A DNA stretch of 64,000 nucleotides, taken from Chloroflexota bacterium (GTDB lineage Bacteria; Chloroflexota; Dehalococcoidia; FW602-bin16). The DNA lies in assembly GCA_004297765.1 (NCBI GenBank), contig SCTZ01000179.1, forward strand, positions 1 to 64,000. The letters are read 5' to 3'. Position 1 is the stretch's first letter. Every line of letters begins with the position of its first letter. A model generated the notes under the pieces. The model was not told where the DNA came from. It ran no database searches and saw only the letters and a list, made by a program, of their open reading frames with translations. Of the stretch, positions 38,586 through 63,643 are shown piece by piece. A program made the position numbers and the translations under genes.

Positions 38586-38595
38586 AGCGTTAAGT

Positions 38596-40022: not shown

Positions 40023-40090
40023 TAGGGGCGGACTGCCGTATCCGCCCCAGGGGCGCGCGGGCGGACCGCCGTGTCCGCCCGCGCGCCCCC
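40023..40090. repeat. GC-rich hairpins related to the REP family
   Basis: GGCGGACTGCCGTATCCGCC and, directly after it, a GC-rich palindrome (GGGGCGCGCGGGCGGAC with its complement) stand in tandem just after the membrane-protein gene. They may act as its terminator; no T-tract is present. Confidence 0.6.
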
Positions 40091-40132
40091 GCGTAAGAGA
40101 GCGCTGGGCTACTCAATCCTTCTGGGGACCGC

Positions 40133-40285
40133 TGTAGAGGGTGTCTGAGAAGCCATAGTGCCGATGTCCCCCGTCCCCGCCCCAGGGCACATGCAATGTG
40201 CCCCTACAGCGCGCCTCCCGTAGGGGTACATTGCATGTGCCCTGGGGGGTGGGGATGCGAGGTCCGCCTTTTCAGACACCCTCTA
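40133..40285. mobile_element. MITE-like element A, copy 2
   Basis: 153 bases with 18-base terminal inverted repeats (TAGAGGGTGTCTGAGAAG at the left, CTTTTCAGACACCCTCTA at the right; one mismatch) and terminal TA. The internal palindrome is as in the copy at 24004-24151, with only a few differences. The interval 39988-40743 is otherwise made of repeats and shows no gene. Confidence 0.9.
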
Positions 40286-40325
40286 GCGCAGTTCGCACTG
40301 TGCTTGATCAGCTTTCCGTTCACGC

Positions 40326-40520
40326 GTAGTGGCGGACGGCTCTGTCCGCCAGGGGCGGGGTTGGGTGGGAGGTGGGGGGGCAGGCGTCTACGCGCAGATG
40401 CGCCCGTTCTCCCCATTCGGACCGCGCTCCGCGACCCACTTCATAAGCGCTAACTATGGCGTTGGGGACGCCCCCAGCCCCCCCTGGCGGACAGAGCCGT
40501 CCGCCACTACGTGAGATAAC
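40326..40520. mobile_element. MITE-like element C bounded by REP-type inverted repeats
   Basis: Perfect 30-base terminal inverted repeats (40326-40355 and 40491-40520) are each themselves a copy of the GTAGTGGCGGACGG...TCCGCCA palindrome. The 135-base interior has no coding capacity. This suggests that the single palindromes scattered elsewhere are solo ends of this element. Confidence 0.8.
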
Positions 40521-40743
40521 CCGTCCCGTCAATGTCTGTGAGAAGTGCTGCAGAATATAAGTGGCGAGCAATCTGGCCGCACGGTATAATTCGACAGAGT
40601 CGCTGTCCCCGTCCCGTCTACAGTGCTCTGTAACCGATGAACTGATACGCGTTGCTCTCAGCCAAAGCAGTTCATGAGTCGCAGCCGGGATTACGTCAAG
40701 CCGAGATAATGAGGCGTACTGGCGCTAGAAAGAGAGCTCACGA

Positions 40744-41799: not shown

Positions 41800-42066
41800 A
41801 AGCTAGGCATATGCCGTTCGTCTTCCCACCGCTGTCTAACGTCACGTGTCACATCTGACTGACAGCCCCGCTTTCTTCCGTCTGAAGGGCATCACTATCC
41901 GTGCCGTCTCTCCACTCCACACAGGTCCACCTCGTCACCCCAAGCGGTGACCTAATGCACTACCATGCAACTCGCACTTCGCTATACAGTCCTACATAGG
42001 GATGGTGCACAGTAGGAGCATAGACAGCACGCACACAAGCGTCAAATCAAGGAGTAAGAGGAGCCT

Positions 42067-43605
42067 ATGATAGAGAATCGCCAGTCTATTATCGCTCTCA
42101 CCATGAGTGCGCTGTCGTTCACGGTGTGTTTCGCGGTTTGGACCATGAACGGCGTGCTGGTCACCTTCCTCTCCGACAATCGCATTCTGACGCTGGATCC
42201 AGCGCAGATCGGCTGGCTGATCGGTATTCCAGTGCTCACAGGCGCCATTACACGTCTGCCGGTCGGCATGCTGACGGACAGATACGGCGGCAAATACGTC
42301 TTCGCGGGTGTGATGCTCCTGGCCGCCATCCCTGCCTATCTGATGAGCTATGCCAACACGTACACGGAGTTCATTCTAGGCAGTCTTGGCTTCGGTCTGG
42401 CTGGGGCATCCTTCGCGGTAGGCATCGCCTACACATCGGTCTGGTTCAAGAAGGACCACCAGGGAACGGCTCTGGGCATTTTCGGCGCCGGCAACGTGGG
42501 AGCGTCGCTGACCAGCCTGGGTGCCCCATCGCTTCTGCAGCACCTCACGAACAACGGCGCTAACCTGGACGGCTGGCGCACGCTGCCACAGATCTACGCC
42601 TTCGCTCTGGTCGGAATGGCGGTTCTCTTCCTAATCTTCACCAAAAACCGTAAAGCCGAGCGTAACCCGAACATTGGCATGCTCGGGAGTCTGAAGCCTC
42701 TAAAGAGCGGACGCGTATGGCGATTCGGGCTCTACTACTTCCTGGTTTTCGGGGGCTTCGTGGCCCTATCGCAGTGGCTGATTCCCTATTACGTGAGCGT
42801 CTACGCCATGTCGCTGGTCACGGCCGGCTTCCTGGCCACTCTCTTCAGCATGCCGTCCGGGCTTATCCGCGCCATCGGCGGCTGGATGTCCGATCGGTTC
42901 GGCGCGCGCGCCGTCATGTACTGGATCCTCGCGATTACGTTGCTGGCCTCGCTTCTGCTGATCGTGCCGCCCGTGAACGTGCAGACGCCGGGACAGAGCG
43001 TGATGGCCACCGAGAAGGGCGTAGTCACGGCCGTGACGGAGTCAGAGATCGTGGTCACAGGCAAAAGCTACCCTCTGAAGCCCAAGACGGCGGCCGAGAT
43101 CGCTCAGGATGGATCCGGGCTGGTGATTCTCCCTCAACTGACCTTCTGGCAGGAGCCGACGGTACAGGTCGGCGATCAGATCAAGCGGAAGCAGCTGCTG
43201 GCGCAGGGCATTACCTACGTCTACTTCCCGGCCACCGTGTGGGTCTTCACCTTCCTGGTCTTCCTGCTGGGTGTGACAACGGGCATCGGCAAGGCGGCCG
43301 TGTACAAGCATATCGCCGAGTATTTCCCCAACGATATGGGGGTGGTCGGCGGACTCGTCGGCGTTATCGGCGCCCTCGGTGGGTTCTTCCTGCCCATCCT
43401 GTGGGGCTATCTAGTCGGACAAACCGGGCTCTGGACCACGACCTGGCTGTTCTTCGCGGCTCTTACGATGGTTTCCTTGGTCTGGATGCATCTGGTTGTG
43501 CGAGGAATATCCAAGCATCAGGCGACAATCCAGGCGCGCCATGTCGAGGCAGTGGCCGCCGCCGAGCGCGTCCTGGTGGGCGCCTCCGCGAGTGCGGAGA
43601 GGTAA
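42067..43605 (+). CDS. narK: NarK-type nitrate/nitrite transporter with an inserted domain
   Basis: A 512-residue MFS carrier with 12 predicted helices. It carries NarK-family blocks (RLPVGMLTDRYGGKYVF, GLAGASFAVGIAYTSVWF, FGAGNVGASL). Residues about 300-380 are an insertion between helices, rich in beta-strand sequence (GVVTAVTESEIVVTG ... VQVGDQIKRKQLLAQG), which looks like the lipoyl/barrel-sandwich fold of membrane-fusion proteins. AGGAG lies directly upstream of the ATG. The long 5' gap (41800-42066) holds no gene. Confidence 0.9.
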   Translation: MIENRQSIIALTMSALSFTVCFAVWTMNGVLVTFLSDNRILTLDPAQIGWLIGIPVLTGAITRLPVGMLTDRYGGKYVFAGVMLLAAIPAYLMSYANTYTEFILGSLGFGLAGASFAVGIAYTSVWFKKDHQGTALGIFGAGNVGASLTSLGAPSLLQHLTNNGANLDGWRTLPQIYAFALVGMAVLFLIFTKNRKAERNPNIGMLGSLKPLKSGRVWRFGLYYFLVFGGFVALSQWLIPYYVSVYAMSLVTAGFLATLFSMPSGLIRAIGGWMSDRFGARAVMYWILAITLLASLLLIVPPVNVQTPGQSVMATEKGVVTAVTESEIVVTGKSYPLKPKTAAEIAQDGSGLVILPQLTFWQEPTVQVGDQIKRKQLLAQGITYVYFPATVWVFTFLVFLLGVTTGIGKAAVYKHIAEYFPNDMGVVGGLVGVIGALGGFFLPILWGYLVGQTGLWTTTWLFFAALTMVSLVWMHLVVRGISKHQATIQARHVEAVAAAERVLVGASASAER

Positions 43606-43631
43606 GAATGAAGAGGAAAGGCGAATGAGCG

Positions 43632-45032
43632 ATGGCTGTACTGACCGTACCGCGCCCTAAGAAGCTGACGCGGTGGGAACCGGAGGATCCCCACTTTTGG
43701 GAGAACACGGCGCGGCCGATCTCCTACCGAACGCTTGCGATCACGACGTTTGCGCTGACGCTGTCGTTCGCGACCTGGTTCATGTGGAGTGCAGCCGTCG
43801 TCCACTTGAACAACGTCGGGTTCAAGCTCAGCGTGACGGAGAGCTTCTGGCTCGCCGCGATGCCCGGTCTGTCCGGTGCCACTCTGCGCTTCATCCATAG
43901 CTTTCTAATCCTACGGTTTGGCACGCGGACCGTGGTAACCCTGGGAACGGTCTCCATGTTGATCCCCGCTGTTGGACTCGGCATGGCGGTTCAGAACCCG
44001 GCCACACCGTACTGGGTTCTGCTGGTCCTGGCGGCCTGCGCGGGTCTCGGCGGTGGCAACTTCGCGTCGTACATGTCCAGCACCAGCCTCTACTTTCCGC
44101 GCTCTCGCCAGGGGGTAGCTCTCGGCATCCAGGCCGGCATCGGGAACTTCGGCGTCAGCCTTGTGCAGTTCGCGATCCCCATTGTCATCACCATGTCCAT
44201 GTTCAGCGGTCTGGGGGGTGAGGCGCAGTCCTGGACCAGCGGAGCGGTCAATAAGTCCATGTGGCTACAGAACGCCGGCTACGTTTGGATTGTGCCGGTC
44301 CTGCTCTCCACGGTGCTGTGTTACTTCGGACTGGTGAACCTGCCCATCCGACGCCCCATCAAGCAGCAGTTCGTCATCTTTCGGCGCAAGCACACCTGGG
44401 TCATGTTGCTCCTATACATCATGACCTTCGGCTCCTTCTCCGGCTTTTCAGCCGCGTTCCCGCTGTTGATCAAGGAGTTGTTCGGGCAGCTACCCAACGC
44501 GCCTCAGCCACTGACCTACGCCTTTCTCGGTCCATTGATTGGCTCCCTGTCGCGTCCGCTGGCCGGGTGGATATCGGACAGAGTGGGCGGAGGACTGGTA
44601 ACACTGGTCTCCAGCGTTGGGCTCTGCCTCGGAGCTATCGGCGTGACCTTTGCCACGGCGCCCCAGAGCGCGGCCGATTTTGCGCCGTTCCTGATCTGGA
44701 TGTTGATCCTTTTCTGCGCCTCGGGCATCGGGAACGGCTCTACCTTCCAGCAGATTCCGTTCATCTTCCCTCCGGCGGAGGCAGGGCCGGTGCTCGGCTT
44801 CACGTCCATCGCGGCATACGGCTCGTTCGTCTTCCCGATCGTCTTCGGTTGGGCGCTGAGCACGTACGGCTCCCCGAATATCGCTTTCTACGCCTTCTTC
44901 GGGTTCTTCGCGGTCTGCACCCTCCTCAACTGGTGGTACTACACCCGCCAGGGCTGTGAGAAGCCGTGCAAGCCGGTTTCTGGCAAAGTTATCAGCATGC
45001 CTGTTGGCAAGGATCAGACGGCTCGGGCCTGA
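43632..45032 (+). CDS. narK: NarK-type nitrate/nitrite transporter
   Basis: A 466-residue MFS carrier with 12 helices and the nitrate/nitrite-porter signatures ATWFMWSAAVVHLNN, LPGLSG-like MPGLSGATLRF, GLGGGNFASYMSSTSLYFP and GNGSTFQQIPFIFP. It lacks the domain inserted in the preceding carrier, so it is the plain form. It starts 26 bases after the first narK gene and is probably co-transcribed. Thermus also has two carriers after its nar operon. Confidence 0.92.
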   Translation: MAVLTVPRPKKLTRWEPEDPHFWENTARPISYRTLAITTFALTLSFATWFMWSAAVVHLNNVGFKLSVTESFWLAAMPGLSGATLRFIHSFLILRFGTRTVVTLGTVSMLIPAVGLGMAVQNPATPYWVLLVLAACAGLGGGNFASYMSSTSLYFPRSRQGVALGIQAGIGNFGVSLVQFAIPIVITMSMFSGLGGEAQSWTSGAVNKSMWLQNAGYVWIVPVLLSTVLCYFGLVNLPIRRPIKQQFVIFRRKHTWVMLLLYIMTFGSFSGFSAAFPLLIKELFGQLPNAPQPLTYAFLGPLIGSLSRPLAGWISDRVGGGLVTLVSSVGLCLGAIGVTFATAPQSAADFAPFLIWMLILFCASGIGNGSTFQQIPFIFPPAEAGPVLGFTSIAAYGSFVFPIVFGWALSTYGSPNIAFYAFFGFFAVCTLLNWWYYTRQGCEKPCKPVSGKVISMPVGKDQTARA

Positions 45033-45062
45033 TCACGACTGCTCGACCACGGAGGACCTCTG

Positions 45063-45210
45063 CGCCGAGCCCCAGCCCGGCGTTCCCGGGATCGCGTCTG
45101 GGAGCGCCGAGCCCCAGCTCAGCGTGTTGTGGTCTTTGTAAGATAACATGGTACCTGAGCGGGCGCTATTCCCCCGCCACCCCCCAGGGCGCAATCAATT
45201 GCGCCCCTAC
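45063..45210. repeat. Short direct and inverted repeats after narK2
   Basis: GCGCCGAGCCCCAGC occurs twice (about 45062 and 45106). GGGCGCAATCAATTGCGCCC (about 45185-45205) is a palindrome that resembles the interior of element A. The interval 45033-45256 has no gene. Confidence 0.5.
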
Positions 45211-45256
45211 TCAAGATGTACCTCGTTTATTCGTTCACGACCATTACACGCCGGGT

Positions 45257-45922
45257 TTATTGCTCGGGCCGCCGTCTGGCCATGTAGGCAGCGAGTTGTG
45301 AGCGACGACTCAAATGGAGTTTGGACAGGATATTGCTCACGTAGTTTTTGACCGTGCCTTCGCTGAGAAAAAGGATCTGAGAGATCTCACGGTTGGTTTG
45401 ACCCTCTGCCACGAGCGTGAGGACCTTCTCCTCCTGCTCGGTTAACTCCGAGCCAGCCTGTCTTGCAGAGCCAGCGCCGGTAACGCGCATGCGCTCCAGC
45501 ACCTTCTTCGTCACCACTGGATCGAGCAAAGATTCGCCCCGGGCCACGGCGTTGATGGCCTCGACCAGTGACTGGCTCTTGATCCGCTTGAGAATGTACC
45601 CCGCGGCTCCCGCCAGGATAGAGGCGAAGATAGCCTCGTCGTCCGCATAAGAAGTCAACATGAGCACTTTGCAGTCAGGGTTCCGGCTACAGATCTCGCG
45701 GCAGGCCTCGATGCCACTTCCGTCCGGCAGACGAATATCCATGATGACAACGTCCGCTTTGGTTCGCGCTGCCTCCGCCACGGCTTCGGCCACCGAGCCT
45801 GCCTCCCCCACCACCTGGAAATTCCCTCGTCCATCCAGCAAGGACCGTAGGCCCACGCGGACAACGTCGTGGTCGTCCACAATCAAGATTCTCAGGCGTG
45901 TGCTCTCAGATGCTTCAGTCAT
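45257..45922 (-). CDS. NarL/FixJ-family response regulator
   Basis: A 221-residue two-domain regulator. The receiver has DDHDVVR, the phosphoacceptor Asp62 in IMDIRLPDGSG and the Lys in ILKRIKS. The C-terminal LuxR-type helix-turn-helix (LTEQEEKVLTLVAEGQTNREIS...LSEGTVKNYVSNILSKL, about 155-215) binds DNA. The start at 45922 overlaps the kinase stop by TGATG. Its location beside narK and the transporters suggests control of nitrate or redox-linked genes. The DNA dyad at 30.66 kb is a candidate target. Confidence 0.92.
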   Translation of the reverse strand: MTEASESTRLRILIVDDHDVVRVGLRSLLDGRGNFQVVGEAGSVAEAVAEAARTKADVVIMDIRLPDGSGIEACREICSRNPDCKVLMLTSYADDEAIFASILAGAAGYILKRIKSQSLVEAINAVARGESLLDPVVTKKVLERMRVTGAGSARQAGSELTEQEEKVLTLVAEGQTNREISQILFLSEGTVKNYVSNILSKLHLSRRSQLAAYMARRRPEQ

Positions 45923-47310
45923 CAGGCATGCTCCTCTGTGGCCATCACGGGAATGGACAGCTCCAACTTGGTCCCCTTTTGGGGAGCGGCGTGCACGGAC
46001 AGCACGCTGTGCATGGCCTTGGCTCGCTCGGCGATATTCCGCAGTCCGCGGCCATTCCCCACGACAGATGCGGGATGAAATCCAACGCCGTTGTCCTCGA
46101 TGATCAGGCTCAAGCAATCATTGTGCCGAGTCAGACTGATTATAACCGAGGTGGCATGGGCGTGCTTCAAGACGTTGCTCAGGGCTTCCCGCGCGATATG
46201 GAAGACATGAGCCACCTGGTCGGGCGGAAGGAGCCCGTCGACCTCGCCATCCGTGGAGACGTCCACGTCGATGAGGGAGTTGACACGGAACTCCCTGGCC
46301 AGGCTGGCCAGTCCCTGGCAAAGACTTTGTCCTTGGATCCCCTGCGGCTCCAGACCAAAAATATAGTTGCGGACATCCCAGATGACGCCGTTGAGACCCT
46401 CGATGGACCGTGTGACGCGTTCGGATGCTTCGTCCGTACAGCACCCGGCACGATCCAGGACATGCTCCAGGTTGAGCCCGATAGCGTACAACGATTGGAT
46501 GATCCCATCGTGCAAATCCTGCGCGATGCGCTCGCGTTCCTCCAGCACAGCCAACGCCTGCTCCTGCTCGTAGAGGCGCGCGTTCTCGATGGCGATGGCC
46601 GCCTGTGCTGCCAACATGACGATCGCATCCTCATCCTGTTGGGTAAACTCCTCCCCGCCATGCTTATCAGTCAGGTACAGGTTACCGATGACCACGTTGC
46701 GAGAAACGATGGGCACCCCGAGAAAGGTTTTCATTTGCGGATGATGCGGCGGGTAACCCACCGAGCTAGCATGCTTGCGGATATCCGCGACGCGCAATGG
46801 CTTGCCCAGACGGCGGACCTCCCCCACGACACCACGCCCCTCTGGCAGGCGACCGATGCGCTCGCGCGTCTCTTGATCGATGCCCCGGTTGAGGAAACGC
46901 CCGACATACCCCTCGCCGTCGAGCACTTTCAATGCACAGTACTGCGCACCCACCAGGTCCCGGCTGAGATCCACCACTTTTTGCAGCACTGTCTCGAGGT
47001 CCAGCTCGGCCGTCAGCGCTGTTCCCGCCTCGTGCAGAGCACGCAACTGCTGCGCCTGGCGTTGACCCTCACGGTAAAGCTCGGACAGCTTGCGGTTCTG
47101 CTCGACGATCTCCCGCTGCATGCGCTCAACGAGTCGAAACACGATCTCCGAGAAGACCAGCACGCCCAGGAGCAGCCCGACATAAGTAAGGACGAAGCCG
47201 ACCAGGGTGTGGAGATAGGCTGGGAGAATAAAGTGTCGGACGTAGTCCAGCCAGGCCAGAACGGCGATGGGAAGTATTGCAGCTAGCCACCGCAGCTTTC
47301 GAAGGCTCAT
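45922..47310 (-). CDS. GAF-domain sensor histidine kinase (HisKA_3)
   Basis: A 462-residue membrane kinase with two N-terminal helices (about 8-26 and 36-58), a coiled coil, a GAF domain (about 100-245), a HisKA_3 box with His267 in AQDLHDGIIQSLYAIGLNLE and an HATPase domain with DNGVGFHP and GRGLRNIAERAK. The architecture matches NarX/NreB-LiaS-like kinases paired with NarL-type regulators. No Fe-S Cys cluster of the NreB kind is visible. The start at 47310 has GAGGAG upstream; a longer frame exists but lacks a site. Confidence 0.9.
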   Translation of the reverse strand: MSLRKLRWLAAILPIAVLAWLDYVRHFILPAYLHTLVGFVLTYVGLLLGVLVFSEIVFRLVERMQREIVEQNRKLSELYREGQRQAQQLRALHEAGTALTAELDLETVLQKVVDLSRDLVGAQYCALKVLDGEGYVGRFLNRGIDQETRERIGRLPEGRGVVGEVRRLGKPLRVADIRKHASSVGYPPHHPQMKTFLGVPIVSRNVVIGNLYLTDKHGGEEFTQQDEDAIVMLAAQAAIAIENARLYEQEQALAVLEERERIAQDLHDGIIQSLYAIGLNLEHVLDRAGCCTDEASERVTRSIEGLNGVIWDVRNYIFGLEPQGIQGQSLCQGLASLAREFRVNSLIDVDVSTDGEVDGLLPPDQVAHVFHIAREALSNVLKHAHATSVIISLTRHNDCLSLIIEDNGVGFHPASVVGNGRGLRNIAERAKAMHSVLSVHAAPQKGTKLELSIPVMATEEHA

Positions 47311-47732
47311 GTGCTCCTCAGAGAATTGCGGCGAGCACGACACCGGCAGGCTCGGCGAGGGCCATGCGGGACGTTTTTTCAACCGCTGACGATTCCTTCG
47401 AGCGTCCGTGACTTGCTGGGCCAAGGATCTCGGAGGACAGAACAAGGAATGTTATGGTATCGAACAATGAAAGCATACGTTAGGTCCACGGAGAAGTCAA
47501 TGTATCTCTCCATCAAGCCAACGGGGGACCATCTTGGCCATTCCTGAGGAACCTACCCGTATTTGACAACTTTAGCCGTGGACTCTAATATTACAAGGTC
47601 ACGTCCTGTCTGAGCACTTTTTCTGTGTCATTCTGACTCGCCTCGGGCGAGTTAGAATCCGCACCCTCTGCCGCGCGAATGACGAGGAGCGCGGATTCAT
47701 GGGTAGTCGGCCATTCTAGCCAGACCTCTTGA

Positions 47733-47861
47733 TGTCACCCTGAGCCACTCGCCAGAGGCGACCCTGTCGGCGGCGAATCGTCTGAGGTGACAGCGAAGGG
47801 TCTCCTCGTTGTTCGTGCCGAGGCTGTGGGGGGAGATTCTTCGCTGCGGCTCAGAATGACA
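47733..47861. repeat. Inverted repeat element with TGTCAYYCTGAGCC ends
   Basis: The left end GTCACCCTGAGCC (47733-47746) is matched in inverse at the right end GGCTCAGAATGAC (47848-47860), with further inverted matches inside (GGCGAATCGTC and GAAGGGTCTCC). A half copy (GTCATTCTGACTCG) occurs at about 47629. Dispersed repeats with this GTCATTCTGAGC motif are known in many bacterial genomes. The gap 47446-47955 has no gene. Confidence 0.6.
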
Positions 47862-47955
47862 ACCGAACGGCCTTGGCTGAGAACGACGCGTATCAGTCCG
47901 TCGAATGTGTATTAGTCGGTAGCGTGACGAACCACAGCAATCGGGAGGAAGCGGA

Positions 47956-49035
<1,080 letters not shown>

Positions 49036-49076
49036 ACGAGCTCCAACGCGCCACATTTTACTGGAGGAACAACGTA

Positions 49077-50198
49077 ATGGCAGACAAACCCTATAAGGTG
49101 GCGGCACTGGTGGAGACCATTGCAGAAGCCAGCGAAGCGGCCGAGAAGAAATGCATGCTCGGCTTCGGCCAGATCATGGCTCTGGGCGTCATCGCTGCGG
49201 GTTACCTGGCCCTCGCTACCACCCTCTCCATCGCCGTGGGCGCGGGCATCGAGCTGCCTGGAGTTCAGAAGCTGGTCATGGGAGCAGTCTTTCCGGTCGG
49301 TCTGATCGCCGTTCTCATGGCTGTCTCGGAGCTATCCACCGGCAATTACCTAACCGCGCCGCTAGGCGCCATGATGGCACGCATCGGATGGCGACATACT
49401 TTCTATGTTTGGGCAGGAAGCTACGCGGGCAACTTTCTCGGAGCTTTCATCATGGCCGCGATCATCATACACGGCGCCCATATCTTCGTGGGTCCCATGT
49501 GGGGTGAGCAGTGGGTAGCCCTCCTAAAGAAGTATGTGACAGTCAAGGCGCACCTCGCACCCATGGAGGCATTCTGGCGCGGTGTGCTGTGCATCTGGCT
49601 GGTGGATCTGGCCGTGTGGCAGGCCTATCGCGTGAAGGATACCACCTCCAAGTTCCTGCTCATCTGGTTCCCGACCTTCGCCTTCTTCACCCTGGGACTC
49701 GAGCACAGCGTGGTCAACATGTTTATCTTCCCCGCCGCTATCTTCGCGGGCGCAGACATAACATGGAGCGATTTCATGCTTCATAACCTGACTCCCGTAG
49801 TGATGGGGAACATCGTGGGCGGCGTCTTCATCGTGGGAATGCTGTACTGGTACTCGGCTGGTCTGCCCGTGGAGAAGCCGATAGCTCGCCTGGGTTCATT
49901 GGTAGGCGGACATGGCGGTAGTAACGTGGAGATGGGGAATTACAGGTTGCTGGGATTGCACATTGGGCGGGGTGTGTTGGCAGTCGCCATCGCCGTGGCT
50001 TTACTCCCCGGCGTGGGGGCGGGATTATCCGTGCTTCTGCCAGCGGAAGCAGGCATCGTCGTGCCCCTGATGGTGATCGTGTACCTGACCACCCTGGCCT
50101 ACGTGCTTTCGCTGGTGTTCCGCAAGCCACCCAAGCCGACGCCGCAGCTAAACACGGGGCCGGAACCCCAGCACCGAGACTTGAGCATGGTCTCGTAA
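49077..50198 (+). CDS. Formate/nitrite channel (FNT family) with a C-terminal extension
   Basis: A 373-residue FocA/NirC-type pentameric channel. The family blocks are FGQIMALGVIAAGYLAL, GAVFPVGLIAVLMAVSELSTGNYLT, LGLEHSVVNMF and NLTPVVMGNIVGG, with the conserved central His in LEHSVVNM. Typical members end near residue 285. Here about 85 more residues carry two extra hydrophobic helices (VLAVAIAVALLPGVG and VPLMVIVYLTTLAYVLSLVF). GGAGGAA precedes the ATG. In context it imports nitrite, or handles formate for the hydrogenase. Confidence 0.9.
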   Translation: MADKPYKVAALVETIAEASEAAEKKCMLGFGQIMALGVIAAGYLALATTLSIAVGAGIELPGVQKLVMGAVFPVGLIAVLMAVSELSTGNYLTAPLGAMMARIGWRHTFYVWAGSYAGNFLGAFIMAAIIIHGAHIFVGPMWGEQWVALLKKYVTVKAHLAPMEAFWRGVLCIWLVDLAVWQAYRVKDTTSKFLLIWFPTFAFFTLGLEHSVVNMFIFPAAIFAGADITWSDFMLHNLTPVVMGNIVGGVFIVGMLYWYSAGLPVEKPIARLGSLVGGHGGSNVEMGNYRLLGLHIGRGVLAVAIAVALLPGVGAGLSVLLPAEAGIVVPLMVIVYLTTLAYVLSLVFRKPPKPTPQLNTGPEPQHRDLSMVS

Positions 50199-54271: not shown

Positions 54272-54628
54272 CTATCGCACGGGCCGGGATGGTGTCCAAT
54301 CACCCGCGACCTCCTCGTCGGCCATATCCTGCAGGTCGATGAGATGGTTAGCGAAGATCTCACGGGCGGTGTCGAGCAGGTCGAACACTTTGGGATCACG
54401 CACGCGGTAGTAGACGCTGGTTCCTTCCTTGCGCCCGTCCACGACATGCTGCCCGCGCAGGACCGCTAGCTGCTGAGACACGGATGAGGATTCGATAGAC
54501 AGAAGGGCCTGCAACTCCGAGACCGTCTTCTCACCCGGCCGCAGGAGCTCGAGGATCCGAATCCGCGTCGGGTGCGCCAGCGCCTTGAACAGCTCCGCTT
54601 TGAAGCCATGTAACGGCTGCCTGGTCAT
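54272..54628 (-). CDS. ArsR/SmtB-family transcriptional repressor
   Basis: A 118-residue winged-helix protein: FKALAHPTRIRILELLRPGEKTVSEL and SIESSSVSQQLAVLRGQHVV give the recognition helix, followed by the DGRKEGTSVYYRVRDP wing. It has no cysteine at all, so the usual metal ligands of ArsR/SmtB and the two sulfide-sensing cysteines are absent; the inducer is unknown. GAGGAGG lies before the ATG. It precedes the flavoprotein gene and is divergent from the hyf operon. Confidence 0.9.
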   Translation of the reverse strand: MTRQPLHGFKAELFKALAHPTRIRILELLRPGEKTVSELQALLSIESSSVSQQLAVLRGQHVVDGRKEGTSVYYRVRDPKVFDLLDTAREIFANHLIDLQDMADEEVAGDWTPSRPVR

Positions 54629-54957: not shown

Positions 54958-55000
54958 GGGGCCACACCGAGCGCGCAGCGCGCCCGGGTGGCCCCTTTTT
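54958..55000 (+). terminator. Riboswitch-linked intrinsic terminator
   Basis: GGGGCCAC (54958-54965) pairs with GTGGCCCC (54988-54995), with an inner GCGCGC stem, and five T residues follow. It sits between the riboswitch and hyfB, as an expression platform. Confidence 0.85.
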
Positions 55001-55038
55001 CGCTGGTTTTAGCGCGGCACCAGACAGACGGAGTGAGC

Positions 55039-57051
55039 ATGACGTACAAGGAGCCCTACATAGCCCTGGCACCGGTGATGATCTACGCCCTGGGAGCGCT
55101 GCTGGATCTGGTCGATCGCAGGACATCGAGCGCCGTCTCGCACGCAACGGCCCTTCTCGGAAGTCTGGTCGGTCTGGCCGTCGCGCTCAACGCCCTCCTC
55201 TCCGGCAGCACGCAGCAATTCACGCTGTTCGCGGTGGCGCCCTTCGCCAGTCTCAGCTTTCGGCTCGACCCTCTCGCGGCCTACTTTCTCCTGGTGATCT
55301 CGGTCGTGGCGGCCGCCGTCTCGCTCTACGCCATCGGATACCTGCGCGGTGAGCATGGGTCGTCGGTCGGCCTGGGCGCGGCCTTCAACGGCTTCCTGGC
55401 CACCATGGCCCTGGTGGTGCTGGCCGATAGCGTCTTCGCCTTCCTATTCGCCTGGGAGGCCATGTCGCTGGTCTCGTTCTTTCTAGTCATCCACCATAGC
55501 GAACAGAAGGAGGTGCGGCGGGCCGGATTCGTGTATCTGGTCATGACACACGCCGGCACCGCTTTTCTGCTGGTGGGCTTCTTCCTGCTCTCCACGGCCG
55601 CGGGCAGCCTCGATTTCGAGGCGCTTCGGGCGGCTTCGACCAGCCTATCGCCGCTGGTGCGCGACAGCGTGTTTCTACTGGCGCTGGTGGCCTTCGGCAC
55701 GAAGGCCGGTATTATCCCGCTCCACGTCTGGCTTCCGCGCGCCCATCCCGCCGCGCCGAGCCACGTCTCGGCCCTAATGAGTGGCGTGATGATCAAGACG
55801 GCCATCTACGGTCTGCTGCGCATCGGCTGGGAGCTGGCCGGGCCGGGACCGGTCTGGTGGGGCGGGCTGATCCTGGCGCTGGGAGCCGCCTCGGCCGTTC
55901 TGGGCGTGCTCTACGCCCTGATGGAGCACGATCTGAAGCGGCTGCTGGCCTACCACAGTGTCGAGAACATCGGCATCATCCTGATGGGGCTGGGCGCGGC
56001 CTTCCTGCTGGCGCCGCTGGGACATCCCACGGCGGCAGCCCTGGCGCTCCTGGCCTGCCTGTACCACGTGCTCAACCACGCCGTCTTCAAGGGGCTGCTC
56101 TTTCTGGGCGCCGGCGCAGTCCAGCAGGCCACGCGCACGCGCGACCTGGAGTCGCTGGGTGGGCTCATCCGGCGCATGCCCTGGACCGGCGTAACCTTCC
56201 TGGTCGGCGCCGCCGCCATCTCGGCTCTCCCACCGCTCAACGGTTTTGCGAGCGAGTGGCTCACCTTCCAGTCCCTTTTGGCCGTGGGCACCGCCGCCGC
56301 GGGGCCGGTCCTCACGGTTGGCGCGGCGGCCGCCGCGGGGCTGCTGTCCCTGACCGGCGGGTTGGCCGCGTTCTGCTTCGTCAAGGCCTTCGGGATCGCC
56401 TTCCTTGGCATGCCACGCGGCGCGGCGGCCGGCGCGGCCCGGGAGGTCGGGCGACCAATGCTGTTGGGCATGGGTCTCCTGGCCGTACTCTGCTTCGCCC
56501 TCGGGCTGATCCCAACTGGCATGGCCCGACTACTGGCTCCGGTGACGAGCGCGCTGGTGGGCGCGGTCGCTCAGCCCTCTCTCAGTCTGACCCCTCTGCC
56601 CGCGACCACGCGGGGCGGCTCCCTGGCGCCGCTGGCGCTCCTAGGGCTGCTGGTGGCGCTGGGACTCCTCGCTTTCCTGCTGGGCCGCCTCATCGGAGGC
56701 CCCGTGCAGACGCGGCTGGCGCCGCCCTGGTGCTGCGGGATCACGCTGGAGCCCTCCATGCAGTACAGCGCCTCCGCGCTGGCCAAGCCGGTCCGGATCG
56801 TCTTCCGTACGCTGGTGCGGCCCTACAACGTCATCACGCGCACGCACGGGCTGGGGATTCCGTACTTCGTCTCATCCGTGCAGTACGAAGCGGGCATCCA
56901 CCCTGTATATGAACGGTACCTCTACACCCCGACCGTCCGGGCGCTGCTGACCCTGGCGCACCAGATTCGACTGCTCCAAACCGGCAGCCTGCGGACCTAC
57001 CTGGCCTACGTCTTCGCGACGCTGGTCGTCGTGCTACTCCTGACCCGATGA
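55039..57051 (+). CDS. hyfB: Hydrogenase-4 component B (proton-translocating subunit)
   Basis: A 670-residue, NuoL/MrpA-related membrane protein. It has FAWEAMSLVSFFLVI, FGTKAGIIPLHVWLPRAHPAAPSHVSA and KRLLAYHSVENIGIILMG, with the conserved helix lysines and glutamate needed for proton movement, and the C-terminal helix bundle of HyfB/HycC. GGAG precedes the ATG at 55039; an upstream in-frame ATG at 54988 lies inside the terminator. It is the first gene of the operon. Confidence 0.92.
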   Translation: MTYKEPYIALAPVMIYALGALLDLVDRRTSSAVSHATALLGSLVGLAVALNALLSGSTQQFTLFAVAPFASLSFRLDPLAAYFLLVISVVAAAVSLYAIGYLRGEHGSSVGLGAAFNGFLATMALVVLADSVFAFLFAWEAMSLVSFFLVIHHSEQKEVRRAGFVYLVMTHAGTAFLLVGFFLLSTAAGSLDFEALRAASTSLSPLVRDSVFLLALVAFGTKAGIIPLHVWLPRAHPAAPSHVSALMSGVMIKTAIYGLLRIGWELAGPGPVWWGGLILALGAASAVLGVLYALMEHDLKRLLAYHSVENIGIILMGLGAAFLLAPLGHPTAAALALLACLYHVLNHAVFKGLLFLGAGAVQQATRTRDLESLGGLIRRMPWTGVTFLVGAAAISALPPLNGFASEWLTFQSLLAVGTAAAGPVLTVGAAAAAGLLSLTGGLAAFCFVKAFGIAFLGMPRGAAAGAAREVGRPMLLGMGLLAVLCFALGLIPTGMARLLAPVTSALVGAVAQPSLSLTPLPATTRGGSLAPLALLGLLVALGLLAFLLGRLIGGPVQTRLAPPWCCGITLEPSMQYSASALAKPVRIVFRTLVRPYNVITRTHGLGIPYFVSSVQYEAGIHPVYERYLYTPTVRALLTLAHQIRLLQTGSLRTYLAYVFATLVVVLLLTR

Positions 57052-57064
57052 GGAGAGACTCTAT

Positions 57065-57991
57065 ATGAACTCCGCTCTGCTCGCCACCAATTTTGGCCTG
57101 GCCCTCGTCATCGCGCCCCTGCTGAACGGCATCATCAAGAAATCCAAGGCCGGCTGGCAGAACCGGCGTGGGCCCGGCATCCTGCAGCCGTGGTACGACA
57201 TCATAAAGTATCTGGGACGCGAGAGCGTCGTCTCCGAGCACGCCTCGTGGATCACGCGCTGGTCGCCCTTCGTCTACTTCGGGGCGCATCTGGCCGCGGC
57301 CGGTCTGGTACCCACAGTACTCGCGATCTCGCCGCTGGGTGGCGTGGGGGACGTGATCCTGCTGGTTGGACTGCTGGCGCTGGCCCGCTTTGCCCTGGCT
57401 CTGGCCGCGCTGGACACAGCCAGCAACTTCGGCGGGATGGGCACCAGCCGCGAGCTGGCCTTCGCGGCGCTGGTGGAGCCGGCCCTGCTGCTGTCCCTCT
57501 TCGCGCTGGCCATACCGGTCGGCTCGACAGCGCTGGGCGCCCTGGTTGTCGACGGGGGCGTGACCGTAGCACGCGCCCTGGCCCTGGGAGCGCTCTTCAT
57601 CGTCGCCATCGCCGAGACCGGTCGCATCCCCGTCGACAACCCGGACACCCATCTCGAGCTGACCATGGCCCACGAGGGCATGCTGCTCGAATACTCCGGA
57701 CGGCCGCTGGGTTTGCTGCTATGGGCCACCCACATCAAACAGTTGGTCGTGGTCTCACTGCTAGCAGCGCTCTTTCTGCCCTGGGGCATCGCCCACGAGG
57801 CGACGCCGACCGCCCTGGCAATCGGCGTAGGCGCCTATCTGCTCAAGCTGGGGCTGATCGGATTGGCCCTGGCCCTGGTCGAAACGACCAACGTCAAGAT
57901 GCGCATCTTCCGCGTGCCCGAGCTCCTGGGCGCGTCGTGTCTGCTCGGGCTGCTGGCCGTGATCTCCGACTACCTGGTGGGAGGCTACTAG
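57065..57991 (+). CDS. hyfC: Hydrogenase-4 component C (NuoH-like)
   Basis: A 308-residue, eight-helix membrane protein that joins the catalytic arm to the ion pump. Family blocks are KSKAGWQNRRGPGILQPWYDI, SNFGGMGTSRELAFAALVEPAL, IPVDNPDTHLELTMAHEG and LVETTNVKMRIFRVPELLG. AGGAGAG lies upstream of the ATG. It follows hyfB by 13 bases and precedes hyfE by 1. Confidence 0.93.
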   Translation: MNSALLATNFGLALVIAPLLNGIIKKSKAGWQNRRGPGILQPWYDIIKYLGRESVVSEHASWITRWSPFVYFGAHLAAAGLVPTVLAISPLGGVGDVILLVGLLALARFALALAALDTASNFGGMGTSRELAFAALVEPALLLSLFALAIPVGSTALGALVVDGGVTVARALALGALFIVAIAETGRIPVDNPDTHLELTMAHEGMLLEYSGRPLGLLLWATHIKQLVVVSLLAALFLPWGIAHEATPTALAIGVGAYLLKLGLIGLALALVETTNVKMRIFRVPELLGASCLLGLLAVISDYLVGGY

Positions 57992-57992
57992 G

Positions 57993-58661
57993 ATGATCGC
58001 CCTCGACGTCGACTCCGCACACCACATACTCAATAGCCTGGCCGTGCTGCTCCTGGCCACGGCCCTCTGGTCGATCCTCGTCCGCCGACTGGATAGCTCC
58101 ATTCGATTGCTGGGGCTGCAGGGGCTGCTGCTGGCCGCCGCCGCGGCCGTGGTGGCCCTGAGCAGTGGCACTGCTCACGCCTACGTCGCGGTCGTCATCA
58201 CGCTGGCGATCAAGGCCGTGGCCGTGCCCGGGATCCTGCTGTTCGCGCTGCGCGAGGTCAAGCTCAAGCGCGAGGTAGAGATGGCGCTCTCGCGCCGCTT
58301 CGCGTTTCCGCTGGCCATCGGACTGGTGCTGGTGGCCTACGACGTGGTGGCCCCGCTGGAGACCTTGGACGGGCTGCTGGCTCACGAGGCTCTGCCGGCG
58401 GCCGTGGCCATGCTGCTGATCGGGCTCTTCAACATGTTGATCCGCAAGAAGGCCCTCAGTCAGATCATTGGCATCGTGGCCATGGAGAACGGCCTGTACC
58501 TGATGGCCGTGGTCGCCACCAGCGGGTTGCCGCTGGCTGTGGAGCTGGGCGTGGCTGCCGATCTCGTGACCGGCGTCCTGGTCATGTCCATGTACGCGCG
58601 CCAGATTCACCGCACCTTCAACACTATCAACACCGATCGGCTTCGGACTCTGCGAGGATGA
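57993..58661 (+). CDS. hyfE: Hydrogenase-4 component E (NuoK-like)
   Basis: A 222-residue membrane protein with about seven helices. The NuoK-like half holds the intramembrane Glu in GIVAMENGLYLMAVV. The family is present in hydrogenase-4 and related group-4 complexes. Its stop overlaps the hyfF start by ATGA. Confidence 0.9.
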   Translation: MIALDVDSAHHILNSLAVLLLATALWSILVRRLDSSIRLLGLQGLLLAAAAAVVALSSGTAHAYVAVVITLAIKAVAVPGILLFALREVKLKREVEMALSRRFAFPLAIGLVLVAYDVVAPLETLDGLLAHEALPAAVAMLLIGLFNMLIRKKALSQIIGIVAMENGLYLMAVVATSGLPLAVELGVAADLVTGVLVMSMYARQIHRTFNTINTDRLRTLRG

Positions 58662-60133
58662 CTATGGAACTGTTGGCTCTGCTCGCGGCCCCGCTCGTCA
58701 CGGGAGTAATCTGCCGGCTTGCGCCCCGTCGGTCCTGGGTGGAAGCGCTGAACGCCATCGGGGCCACGCTGACGCTGGGCGCCGGGTTGGCCCTGGCTCT
58801 GCGCGTCTTCCGCTCCGGGCCGGTTACGGCGCTGGGCGATCTGCTCTACGTCGACGCGCTGGGGGCGTTGATCACCCTCGTGATCGTCGTCGTTGGATTC
58901 CTGGCCGCGCTGTACTCGACCGGCTACATCAAGCGCGACGTCGAGCACGGCAAGGTGCCGGACGGACACGTCGGTTGGTACTACCTGGGCTACCACGCCT
59001 TCATCTGGACAATGCTGGTGACCGGGACTGTCAATAACCTGGGGCTGCTGTGGGTGGCCATCGAGGCCACCACCATCGTCTCCGCCCTGCTGGTCGGGTT
59101 CTACCGGACCAAGGCGGCCCTGGAAGCCGCCTGGAAGTACCTGGTGCTGTGCACGGTGGGGATCACCTTCGCCCTGTTCGGCGTCCTTTTGACCTACTAC
59201 GCCTCCCTCCACGCGCTCGGCGAGGAAGCTGGGTTGAACTGGACCGCCCTTGTCGCGCACGCCAACCAACTCGACCCAGGACTGATCAAGCTGGCCTTCG
59301 TGTTCGTCCTGATCGGTTTTGGCACCAAGGCCGGCTTCGCGCCGCTGCACAACTGGCTTCCGGACGCGCACAGCCAGGCGCCGTCCCCGGTGAGCGCGGT
59401 CCTCTCGGGCGTGCTGCTCAAGTGCGGGCTGTATGGTGTGCTGCGCTTTCACATGATCGCCGCGGGCACGCTGGGCCCCGAGTTCTCCTCCCGGCTGCTG
59501 CTCGGCTTCGGCCTTCTATCCGTCGTAGTGGCCGTACCGTTCATCCTCGTCCAGCGCGATCTAAAGCGGCTGCTGGCCTACAGCAGTGTGGAGCACCTGG
59601 GGTTAATCGCGGTGGCCATCGGGCTGGGTGGACCGCTGGGCCTCTACGCGGGGCTGCTGCATCTGCTCAATCACGCCATAACGAAGCCGCTGCTCTTCTT
59701 CGTGGCTGGCAACCTTTCCCATCGCTATGGGACAACGCGGATGGCGCGCATTCGTAGCGCTGTTCAGACCATGCCCCTCACGGGGACCATGCTCTTGCTG
59801 GGCATCTTCGCGATCACCGGCGTTCCGCCGTTCGGGATCTTCGTCACCGAATTCGGCGTGATCGGCGCCGGCTTCGCCCTCGGCAACACGCCCGTGGCGC
59901 TGGTCGTCATCGCCGCGGTAGTCATCGTCTTCGCGGGCGCCTTCGGACACGCCCTGGACATGGCCTTCGGACGGCCCCGCGTGCGTCTCAGCCCCGTTCT
60001 GATCGGTCCTCTCGGCACGGTCGCGCTGGTGGTGCCGATGGCTCTGATGGTTTTGTTCGGCCTATACGTCCCGCCTCCCATAAGCCAGGTCGTCCGGCAG
60101 GTGGCGCAGATCCTCGGCGGAGGTGGACTATGA
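58658..60133 (+). CDS. hyfF: Hydrogenase-4 component F (antiporter-like subunit)
   Basis: A 491-residue, 14-helix NuoN/NuoM-related subunit. The conserved blocks are LLWVAIEATTIVSALLVGFYR, FGTKAGFAPLHNWLPDAHSQAPSPVSAVL and KRLLAYSSVEHLGLIAVAIG. It is the second proton-pumping subunit of the operon; a HyfD equivalent is absent. It overlaps hyfE and hyfG by 4 bases each. An alternative ATG two codons later is possible. Confidence 0.92.
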   Translation: MTMELLALLAAPLVTGVICRLAPRRSWVEALNAIGATLTLGAGLALALRVFRSGPVTALGDLLYVDALGALITLVIVVVGFLAALYSTGYIKRDVEHGKVPDGHVGWYYLGYHAFIWTMLVTGTVNNLGLLWVAIEATTIVSALLVGFYRTKAALEAAWKYLVLCTVGITFALFGVLLTYYASLHALGEEAGLNWTALVAHANQLDPGLIKLAFVFVLIGFGTKAGFAPLHNWLPDAHSQAPSPVSAVLSGVLLKCGLYGVLRFHMIAAGTLGPEFSSRLLLGFGLLSVVVAVPFILVQRDLKRLLAYSSVEHLGLIAVAIGLGGPLGLYAGLLHLLNHAITKPLLFFVAGNLSHRYGTTRMARIRSAVQTMPLTGTMLLLGIFAITGVPPFGIFVTEFGVIGAGFALGNTPVALVVIAAVVIVFAGAFGHALDMAFGRPRVRLSPVLIGPLGTVALVVPMALMVLFGLYVPPPISQVVRQVAQILGGGGL

Positions 60134-61725
60134 TCACGACGGTAGAGGCAGGACGCATCGATCCTATCGCCCATCTGCAAAACATCGTCGACGCGGCCGC
60201 GCGGGTGGAGGCGGATGGCCGGGGACAGATCCACGTCTCCGTGCCGGTGGAACGGTTGGTGGAGACGTGCGCGACCGTGCACGGACTGCTGGCCGCGCCG
60301 CTCACGACCATGGTCGGCGTGGACGACCGCGCGAGGACGGGTCTGTTTCAGTTGGCCTACGTCTTCTCGACCGGCGGTCACTGGGTAAGCGTGGAAACAG
60401 GGATCGACCCGGCCCGGCCGCGCTTCCCATCGGTGACGCCGTGCCTTCCGGCGGCCCATTGGTATGAGCGTGAGGTGCAGGATCTGCTGGGGTTGATCCC
60501 GGAGGGTCACCCGGACCCGCGCCGGCTGGTCCTGCACGATGACTGGCCCGAGGGCATCTACCCACTGCGTAAGGATTTCGATCCCACGATCCCCGTCCCG
60601 CGCGTCGACGGGCCCAAACACCGCTTCCACCACCTACACGGCGAGGGCTTTGTCGAGATCCCGGTCGGGCCCATCCACGCCGGCGTCATCGAGCCGGGGC
60701 ACTTCCGTTTTGCCGCCATTGGCGAGGTGGTGCTGCACCTGGAGACGCGCCTGTTCTACACGCATCGGGGGATCGAGAAGCTGGCCGAGGGCAAGAGCCA
60801 TGATCAAGGCCTTCAGATCGCCGAGCGGGTCTGCGGCGCCTGCGCCTTCTCGCACGCAGTCTCCTACTGCCAGGCTATCGAAACCATAGCGGCGGTCGCC
60901 GTTCCGCCGCGAGCTCTCGCCCTGCGCACCCTTTTCCTCGAGCTGGAGCGGCTCTACAACCACGTGGGCGACCTGGGGAACATCTGCGCCGGGGTGGGCT
61001 TTGCCGTCGGAACCAGCCAGGGCAGCCGTCTCAAGGAGGAGCTGCAGCGGCTCAACGAGCGGCTCACCGGCCACCGCTTCCTGCGCGGCGTCTGCCGGGT
61101 GGGTGGAGTGCGGCGCGACCTGGACACGGCCGGCGCGCGCGACGCCTCAGAGACGCTGCGACGCGTGGAGGCCGAGTTCCGGCGCTTCGCCGAGCTGATC
61201 CTATCGACAGACGCTTTGTTGGACCGCATGACGGGCACAGGAATCGTGCCGACCAGGGCGGCCCACGACCTGGGCGCCGTGGGCGTGGCCGCGCGCGCCA
61301 GTGGCATCGACCGCGACGCGCGCCGCGACCATCCGCACGCCTGCTACGATCAGCTCGACCTGCACGTCCCCGTGCGAACTGAGGGCGACGTTCGCGCCCG
61401 CGCCCGGGTGCGCGTCGATGAGGCTCATGTATCATTCTCGCTAGCCCGCCAGGTGCTAGCTGGACTGCCTTCCGGTACATCGTCCGTATCTGTGCAGACG
61501 TTGCCCCCATACGCGACCGCCCTCGGCGTGACCGAGTCGCCGCGTGGGGAGAACGTGCACTGGGTTCGCACCGGCCCGGAAGGCAAGATCGACCGCTATC
61601 GCGTGCGCTCGGCTTCATTCTGCAACTGGCCGATCGTCGCGCTAGCCGTCCCCGGCAACATGGTGCCGGATTTCCCGCTCATCAACAAGAGCTTCGAGCT
61701 GTGCTACGCCTGCCTCGACCGATGA
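60130..61725 (+). CDS. hyfG: [NiFe]-hydrogenase large subunit (group 4, NuoC-NuoD fusion type)
   Basis: A 531-residue catalytic subunit. Residues 1 to about 165 form a NuoC-like domain (WYEREVQDLLGLIPEGHPDPRRL), and the rest is a NuoD-like large subunit. The NiFe ligands are all present: RVCGACAFSH (Cys235, Cys238) and CYAC (Cys525, Cys528). The usual DPCxxC becomes ELCYAC. The protein ends at Arg531, exactly where the maturation protease would cut, so there is no C-terminal peptide. Like CooH, it should need no endopeptidase. It overlaps hyfF by 4 bases. Confidence 0.92.
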   Translation: MITTVEAGRIDPIAHLQNIVDAAARVEADGRGQIHVSVPVERLVETCATVHGLLAAPLTTMVGVDDRARTGLFQLAYVFSTGGHWVSVETGIDPARPRFPSVTPCLPAAHWYEREVQDLLGLIPEGHPDPRRLVLHDDWPEGIYPLRKDFDPTIPVPRVDGPKHRFHHLHGEGFVEIPVGPIHAGVIEPGHFRFAAIGEVVLHLETRLFYTHRGIEKLAEGKSHDQGLQIAERVCGACAFSHAVSYCQAIETIAAVAVPPRALALRTLFLELERLYNHVGDLGNICAGVGFAVGTSQGSRLKEELQRLNERLTGHRFLRGVCRVGGVRRDLDTAGARDASETLRRVEAEFRRFAELILSTDALLDRMTGTGIVPTRAAHDLGAVGVAARASGIDRDARRDHPHACYDQLDLHVPVRTEGDVRARARVRVDEAHVSFSLARQVLAGLPSGTSSVSVQTLPPYATALGVTESPRGENVHWVRTGPEGKIDRYRVRSASFCNWPIVALAVPGNMVPDFPLINKSFELCYACLDR

Positions 61726-61748
61726 GAAACAGGACGAGGAGGATTCTC

Positions 61749-61811
61749 CCTGGGAGCGCGGGCGTCCCGCCCGCGCGAGACTCGCGCGGATGAGACATCC
61801 GCGCTCCCAGG
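61749..61811. repeat. Palindrome of the GGGAGCG family, copy in the hyf operon
   Basis: CCTGGGAGCGCGG is matched inversely by CCGCGCTCCCAGG at 61799-61811 around a GC-rich interior. It fills much of the 157-base hyfG-hyfHI gap. Confidence 0.75.
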
Positions 61812-61882
61812 TGGCATCGTCCCATAGAACCGATACGTTTCACATGAAGAACACGAACCGCCGCCAAAATTGAGGAACCGCC

Positions 61883-62788
61883 ATGCTGAACATTCTGCGC
61901 ACTAGCCTGCAGACCGGGCGAGTCACAACCGCCTATCCGGAGAAACCGGAAGATCGGGCCTGCCGCGGGCGTCCTTCGATCGATCCTGAGCGCTGCGATT
62001 GCACCGGCGCATGCGCGAGTGTCTGTCCGTCCGAGGCCATCACCCTTGGCCAGACCGCACAGCACGCCTGGCGCTGGCAGCTTGACCTGGCCCGCTGCGT
62101 CTACTGTGGGCTCTGCGCGGAGGTCTGTCCCAATGGCGCCCTGATCATGACCAACGAGTTCGAGCTTGCCACGCGCACGCGCGACGATCTGATCGTGGGC
62201 GTCACCCACGCGGATCGCGGACAGCGAGCCACGCTTGCCGTGGTCGACAATTCCGCGAGATCGCCCCAGTCGCGTGGCGGCGGGAACGCCGGCAGTCGTC
62301 TGAGTGATCGCATTCGCCGCCTCTTGAAGCGCTCCCTGCACATTCGCCACCTGGCGGGAGGCTCGGAGAACAGTTGCGACTGGGAGATCACCGCGCTGCT
62401 CAACCCCGTCTACGACGTACAGCGCCTGGGCATCGACTTTGTCGCCTCGCCCCGCCACGCCGACCTATTGCTGGTCACCGGGGCCATCACGCGCCACCTG
62501 GAGTCCGCCCTGCACGCCACCCACGAAGCCATGCCGGAGCCACGCCTGGTGGTGGCCGTCGGCGACGAGGCCTGTTCCGGCGGCATCCTCCAGGGCAGCT
62601 ACGCCGTCGCGGGCGGCGTGGACCGCTGCCTCCCCGTGGACGTCTACATCCCCGGCGACCCACCCTGCCCCCAGGCCCTCATCCACGGCCTCCTCATCGC
62701 CCTCGATAGATTGGAACCCAAGATGCGGCGGATCGAACTGACGAAGGGAATACTAGCAAAGGTCAAAATAGAGGCCCAAAAAGACTAA
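61883..62788 (+). CDS. Fused ferredoxin and hydrogenase small-subunit protein (HyfH-HyfI-like)
   Basis: A 301-residue fusion. Residues about 30-95 hold a two-cluster ferredoxin: the first set has odd spacing (Cys38, 40, 44, 48, CDCTGACASVC), and the second is canonical (Cys72, 75, 78, 82). A linker of about 60 residues leads to a NuoB/HycG-like small subunit (residues 160-275). There the proximal 4Fe-4S ligands differ: ENSC (Glu162, Cys165) for CxxC, GDEACSGG (Glu229, Cys231) and PGDPPCP (Asp259, Cys262) for PGCPP. The partner proteins are usually separate. Family membership is secure; whether the proximal cluster forms is not. Confidence 0.85.
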   Translation: MLNILRTSLQTGRVTTAYPEKPEDRACRGRPSIDPERCDCTGACASVCPSEAITLGQTAQHAWRWQLDLARCVYCGLCAEVCPNGALIMTNEFELATRTRDDLIVGVTHADRGQRATLAVVDNSARSPQSRGGGNAGSRLSDRIRRLLKRSLHIRHLAGGSENSCDWEITALLNPVYDVQRLGIDFVASPRHADLLLVTGAITRHLESALHATHEAMPEPRLVVAVGDEACSGGILQGSYAVAGGVDRCLPVDVYIPGDPPCPQALIHGLLIALDRLEPKMRRIELTKGILAKVKIEAQKD

Positions 62789-63391: not shown

Positions 63392-63643
63392 ATGTCACGG
63401 TTCATCGATTACCATACCGAATTAAAGCTTCCGCAAGAGGCTATTCAGCAACTTGCCGATGAGGCGAAGAGCGGGAAGCGCGACCAATACGGGGTACGCG
63501 TGCTAGACGTGTACTACAATCCGCAAGGGAAGGTCTACTGTTACCTTGATGGCCCGAGCGAGGAAGCGATTCGCCAGCACCATCTAGCCTCTGGTGTCAC
63601 CTGCGACGAGGTGACACAGGTAGACTGTCTATCCTGTGCCTAG
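63392..63643 (+). CDS. DUF4242-like small protein
   Basis: An 83-residue protein with a ferredoxin-like alpha/beta pattern (ALKLP-like ELKLPQEAIQQLADEAKSG, then GVRVLDVYYNPQGKVYCYLDG, then EEAIRQHHLASGVTCDEVTQV). This resembles DUF4242/SCO4226-type proteins, some of which bind nickel. Two Cys end the chain (CLSCA). AAGGAGG precedes the ATG at ideal spacing. A nickel link would be interesting beside a hydrogenase, but that is only inference. Confidence 0.7.
   Translation: MSRFIDYHTELKLPQEAIQQLADEAKSGKRDQYGVRVLDVYYNPQGKVYCYLDGPSEEAIRQHHLASGVTCDEVTQVDCLSCA

Follow-up and report, generated by a model that had tools for sequence, protein, structure and literature searches.

The last gene of a Hyf-like operon in the 64,000-nucleotide stretch of Chloroflexota DNA analysed here (the window) encodes a ferredoxin fused to a small subunit in which three of the four ligand positions of the N2-type (proximal) [4Fe-4S] cluster are acidic. 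As judged from homologous sequences, this altered ligand set is a maintained change. We propose that the operon encodes an Ehr-Hyf complex, a complex I/Hyf-like membrane complex that has probably lost N2 and holds a carboxylate pocket at its site, and that would translocate ions without being driven by electrons.

The fused subunit and its operon

The open reading frame at 61883–62788 (+) starts with ATG, encodes 301 amino acids and, as the preliminary description had it, is intact. Both Fer4 and Oxidored_q6 (PF01058, 83 bits) were detected in its product, with a 2x[4Fe-4S] ferredoxin at the N-terminus (approximately residues 1–110) and the small subunit at the C-terminus (approximately residues 140–285), and the product matches the NuoB-type fold with Z values of 19.5–20.6. 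An AF2 model built with 92 sequences reached a pLDDT of 90.7 (against a poor 49 with 9 sequences). Its small domain superimposed on MbhJ with Z 19.5 and an rmsd of 1.8 Å and on HycG with Z 19.7, so that the fold is predicted to survive the ligand change.

When aligned with MbhJ and HycG from the solved complexes, the product reads GSENSC for GSCNGC, GDEAC for GAC and PGDPP for PGCPP. The N2-type ligand positions C-x2-C / C / C are thus E162-x2-C165 / E229 / D259, and the four proximal [4Fe-4S] cysteines of group 4 [NiFe] hydrogenases are not present. Glu162 (GAG, 62366–62368, +), Glu229 (GAG, 62567–62569, +) and Asp259 (GAC, 62657–62659, +) replace cysteines 1, 3 and 4, respectively, and Cys165 (62375–62377, +) is the sole ligand position retained. 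The ExxC, GDEAC and PGDPPC motifs first read from the gene are thereby borne out, and the changed electron path supposed from them is, at the level of sequence, well supported by a relay position devoid of its ligands.

The first ferredoxin motif, C38-D-C40-T41-G-A-C44 (61994–62014, +), is indeed shifted by one residue as had been pointed out, since it reads C38-x-C40-x3-C44-x3-C48 with the canonical second cysteine (41) replaced by Thr and with C40 as an extra cysteine. From the known NuoI layout, we take this motif to correspond to the distal N6a-type cluster, and the second motif C72-C75-C78...C82 (62096–62128, +), through C72, C75 and C78 together with C48 (62024–62026), to the N6b-type cluster. 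The aligned fused relatives retain C48, C72, C75 and C78 of the N6b type. Of the N6a-type set (38/41/44/82), many family members, four-Cys relatives among them, have only part or none. The Ehr of Verrucomicrobia and Terriglobia (loci L096–L099, L102–L105, L107, L109, L110, L112, L113, L116–L123, L125, L126 and L130) have ferredoxin domains that have lost every distal, N6a-type ligand and retain the N6b-type set.

The fused gene is the final one of a six-gene operon, hyfBCEFG-I (54988–62788, +), whose products match HyfB/HycC, HyfC/HycD, HyfE, HyfF, HyfG/HycE and HycF+HycG. The HyfB/HycC-like antiporter subunit (54988–57051, +) keeps TM5 Glu157, TM7 Lys239 and Lys270, and is followed by a HyfC/HycD (NuoH-like) membrane subunit (57065–57991, +), a HyfE-like membrane subunit with a NuoK-type domain, Oxidored_q2 (57993–58661, +), a HyfF-like antiporter subunit with TM5 Glu136 and TM7 Lys224 kept (58658–60133, +) and a HyfG/HycE-like large subunit with a 30 kDa domain (60130–61725, +). 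An ArsR-family regulator (54272–54628, −) lies upstream and divergent from the operon. Among solved structures it best matches Rv0081 of M. tuberculosis (6jmi, E 1.1e-20), the regulator adjoining the hyc locus of that organism, and a direct search placed ArsR homologues beside the same operon in other Chloroflexota (L066, L069, L073, L074, L075, L076 and L079) and in Terriglobia loci. Downstream, the gene for ribosomal protein S20 (rpsT, PF01649; 62851–63117, −) is convergent with the hyf operon, and past it a small ORF at 63392–63643 (+) matches an SCO4226-like nickel-responsive protein (PF14026). The same contig carries a complete-looking nuo operon (9992–25539, −) and, at 30893–50198 (+), a region with the sequence appearance of a Nar-type nitrate reductase (31858–36977) followed by transporters, which include a SLAC1-type channel (47956–49035) and a formate/nitrite transporter (48927–50198).

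Distribution and origins of the acidic ligand set

The search of Chloroflexota found the fused gene with a like altered set in six other genomes, which with the window makes seven from five families. G086, G174, G144 and G071 have D-x2-C/T/C, GDEAC and PGD/S-PP, and the more distant G250 and G167 have D-x2-A, GTDAC and PGDPP; class-wide searches around G250 and G086 gave no further members. Frames are intact in these relatives, the closest of which are 69–72% identical, and in pairwise comparison with them the window gene has an NG86 dN/dS of 0.10–0.33, rough values since dS is near saturation. Seen in isolation, three ligand losses together with a changed ferredoxin motif in a single protein would suggest a decaying copy or errors of assembly or sequencing. 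However, the same set is found in independent assemblies with intact frames, low dN/dS and an intact operon, and NuoB on the same contig (24467–25192, −) has the normal CC/C/C set of N2 ligands, and this speaks against a systematic fault in the sequencing. Decay and sequencing error are therefore rejected as highly improbable. Homologues with standard cysteines, taken beforehand as the sign of such error or decay, do exist in sister clades, and the altered set is common to the nearest relatives. In the alignment of homologues that the preliminary description had called for, the acidic residues are conserved among relatives and under purifying selection; of the cysteines at 231, 249 and 262, whose residue numbers had been given correctly, the third is not conserved, the second is so in part, and the first is not new.

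Those cysteines had been suggested to provide a new cluster coordination, and their distribution does not sustain the idea. C262 is private to this copy (Arg in L035–L040), and C249 is present in five of the seven Chloroflexota acid-type proteins (Val in L038 and L040). C231 is found in all seven and is invariant also in the Dehalococcoidia-type acid proteins, and it is common in four-Cys (cluster-bearing) relatives as well, thus being no new cysteine. C165 is kept in four of the seven (Ala in L039 and L040, Thr in L037), L040 has no candidate replacement cysteine other than C231, and in the majority of the Actinobacterial acid-type proteins cysteine is missing from all of positions 162, 165, 229, 231 and 259. 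Replacement cysteine ligands are hence rejected as a general explanation.

A wider version of the idea is that a [4Fe-4S] or [3Fe-4S] relay cluster persists, ligated by Asp/Glu together with C165, C231 and C249, and that it has a shifted potential and serves a working, altered path. Aspartate is a [4Fe-4S] ligand in Pyrococcus ferredoxin, which favours such a cluster. So does the A. macleodii hydrogenase, which stays active with single Cys-to-Asp changes at its proximal ligands, and single natural cases have been listed (PMC4070099). The invariance of C231 in Chloroflexota and Dehalococcoidia-type acid proteins and the retention of C165 in four of seven agree with it too, whereas the replacements just given at 165, 249 and 262 and the cysteine-free Actinobacterial proteins do not. 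Moreover, we know of no precedent for a cluster with three carboxylate ligands and no more than one cysteine, and we consider a mixed-ligand cluster unlikely.

Scanning the genomes of named species brought in a further 80 loci beyond the Chloroflexota set, and after removal of duplicates 99 loci and the window (100 rows) were typed for both subunits. All four small-subunit cysteines are present in 80 rows, at most one (only C165) in 20, and two or three in none. The acid-type class, defined by D/E at 162, a residue other than Cys at 229 and 259 and at most one of the four cysteines, includes the window. Position 162 is acidic in all 20 acid-type rows, being D in 19 and E in the window; position 229 is D/E in 19 rows and A in one, and position 259 is D, N, S or T throughout. 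No other column of the small C-terminal domain or of the large subunit has a parallel switch across all four acid-type sets. Since the change from Cys (TGY) to Asp or Glu needs at least two base changes, the repeated acid outcome is not the mutational default and points to selection.

In a tree built from the small C-terminal domain and the large subunit after masking of the eight ligand columns, four state changes of the acid type are seen: in the window clade, in L039/L040, in L058–L060 and in Actinobacteria with L045. L058–L060, which belong to the window's own class and are termed Dehalococcoidia-type on the strength of genome size and gene set, adjoin the Thaumarchaeota Ehr. Two topologies are rejected by the AU test: one in which all acid-type sequences form a single clade (p 4e-6), and with it a common origin for the acid-type small subunits as a whole, and one in which the window clade is joined to L058–L060 (p 0.0014). 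The two fused Chloroflexota acid-type sets taken as one are not rejected (p 0.32). The p-values serve as guides, the groups having been picked after viewing the sequences. Because these two sets are possibly one, the count is given as at least three, the safe count being that the acid type would have arisen in the window clade, in the Dehalococcoidia-type relatives and in Actinobacteria.

Small-genome relatives of the window's class (L006, L007, L058, L059, L060 and L077) have Hyc-like operons with all ligands gone in both subunits. The Actinobacterial loci L135, L142, L151–L153, L156, L158, L162 and L165 combine an acid small subunit (D-x2-D/E, GxDA, PGS/N) with a large subunit that has none of the cysteines; these loci probably represent the hyc type of M. 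tuberculosis.

The large subunit and the Hyp genes

The large subunit stops right after CYACLDR, without a C-terminal extension. It had been described as keeping its NiFe ligands, and this is correct for the four cysteines, C235/C238 and C525/C528. The N-terminal motif, C235-GA-C238 (60832–60843, +), lies in RVCGACAFSH and conforms to RxCGxCxxxH. In the C-terminal motif, C525-YA-C528 (61702–61713, +), within FELCYACLDR, the cysteines are present but the DP of DPCxxC is replaced by EL, and ELCxxC is found across the clade. This replacement and the missing HypD and HypE in G250 and G167 tell against the remainder of the claim and render the hydrogenase label for the complex of 61883–62788 doubtful.

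None of the seven Chloroflexota acid-type proteins has lost any of these four cysteines; the Dehalococcoidia-type and Actinobacterial acid types no longer have them. In the acid-type genomes G250 and G167, and likewise in G354, G298 and G295 of the four-Cys type, the HyfG-like protein is the only PF00374 protein, and HypD and an over-cutoff HypE are absent, the completeness of the five genomes being 94–96%. These absences argue for, and do not amount to proof of, the lack of a NiFe(CN)2CO site in the five. G086, G174 and G071, of the acid type, are without HypD and yet carry ordinary hydrogenases, so that some Hyp absences are gaps in the MAGs, and each of the eight four-Cys Firmicutes genomes has HypD. 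Both observations weaken the absence of HypD as proof of a non-NiFe site. The window genome has HypD and HypE, plus a group-3-like hydrogenase on contig C192.

A candidate carboxylate site and its relatives

In the model that we favour, the N2-type cluster has been lost and E162, E229 and D259 would form a carboxylate pocket. Electron tunnelling is subject to established distance limits; without N2, the distance from the ferredoxin clusters to the large-subunit cavity would exceed what electron transfer at turnover rates allows, and with transfer so slow the complex would not be a working H2-evolving hydrogenase. The carboxylates would most likely supply the negative charge that the cluster once provided, or would be a binding site for a cation or a proton, and would keep the small/large interface and the coupling cavity in shape. 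The complex would be an ion-translocating module, for instance for H+ or Na+ exchange, not driven by electrons reaching the large subunit, and the ferredoxin cluster that remains may be structural or may act as a sensor. The model is supported by: (i) the selected, all-or-none swap with at least three origins; (ii) the retention of the fold and of N6b, and (iii) the membrane arm, as no acid-type row tabulated has lost the TM5 Glu or the TM7 Lys of HyfB or HyfF. Also in its favour are the Hyp absences in G250 and G167, and the finding that no common electron-input gene family stood out beside the operons, where no clear shared neighbour gene was found either. On the other side, the large-subunit cysteines kept in all the Chloroflexota acid-type proteins suggest that a metal still matters there, the HypD and HypE of the window genome count against the model (although this genome also has the group-3-like hydrogenase), and, by analogy, the Cys-to-Asp changes tolerated in a two-subunit hydrogenase make carboxylate ligation of some cluster possible.

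The main rival to a charge, cation or proton role is a non-FeS metal, such as Mn, Fe, Zn, Mg or Ca, bound in the pocket, with the Chloroflexota large-subunit cysteines binding a second metal and a new active site thus arising in the old cavity. The recurrence of oxygen-donor sets (D/E, D/E, D/N/S/T) in at least three lineages would fit this arrangement, as would the retention of the large-subunit cysteines in all seven Chloroflexota acid types while Hyp genes are missing in G250 and G167. However, no substrate, partner enzyme or gene for metal handling shows a consistent link, and the Actinobacterial and Dehalococcoidia types are without the large-subunit cysteines, so that a shared catalytic role would have to differ by lineage; we regard a metal site of this kind as rather improbable. 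A more general proposal, offered tentatively as rather unlikely, is that the complex I superfamily repeatedly swapped N2 for a carboxylate cation or proton site, turning a redox pump into a translocator that is not electron-driven, and that the NiFe cysteines of Chloroflexota would hold a different metal.

The nearest solved structures for the large, small, ferredoxin and HyfC-like subunits are those of the group 4 [NiFe] hydrogenases E. coli formate hydrogenlyase-1 (7z0s) and P. furiosus Mbh (6cfw). The complex described here differs from them in its E/C/E/D proximal ligands, in ELCxxC for DPCxxC and in the absence of the C-terminal extension, and no formate dehydrogenase was seen in its operon. 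NuoB/NuoI of complex I, with N2, N6a and N6b, have the same fold and cluster layout, whereas here the N2 ligands are lost, the N6a set is incomplete and the operon contains no NADH module.

The Ehr complexes of Nitrosotalea, comammox Nitrospira, Geobacter and Sulfobacillus have the same operon type (HyfB, HyfC, HyfE, HyfF, large and small subunits), often with the small/ferredoxin fusion found at 61883–62788, and in trees the complex groups with the Ehr of Thaumarchaeota, Verrucomicrobia and Methanoperedens. In the portions of the literature considered here, Ehr complexes are described as having no large-subunit CxxC motifs and an unknown function, and small-subunit proximal-ligand loss is not mentioned (PMC6349859, PMC10284858, PMC10432482, PMC4378227), the founding papers (Coppi; Marreiros/Batista) being outside this scope. 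The hyf operon has the membrane arm, large subunit and small subunit of Ehr, but its large subunit has both CxxC pairs and it is the small-subunit ligands that are lost instead, while the Ehr proteins found in Thaumarchaeota, Verrucomicrobia and Methanoperedens keep the four small-subunit cysteines. In M. tuberculosis, Rv0081–Rv0088 is a predicted formate hydrogenlyase locus coregulated by Rv0081 (PMC5484546). The Actinobacterial hyc-type loci, of which that of M. tuberculosis is the named example, share with the window an Rv0081-like ArsR and the same kind of acid small-subunit swap. Judged from loci other than Rv0082/Rv0087, they would have gained the acid set independently, and they are without large-subunit cysteines and mostly without C231.

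In complex I and group 4 hydrogenases, N2 is regarded as the point at which electron transfer and ion pumping come together. Complexes in which it was lost at least three times, with the same acids and an intact membrane arm, would allow the role of the membrane arm without that redox step to be probed directly, and the acid-type set would give a testable handle on the Ehr and hyc complexes of unknown function. The annotation of such operons as 'formate hydrogenlyase' or 'hydrogenase-4' is likely wrong. If the small-genome relatives with no ligands in either subunit include the 'Hyc' of Dehalococcoides, the listing of Dehalococcoides Hyc as a hydrogenase would be wrong as well.
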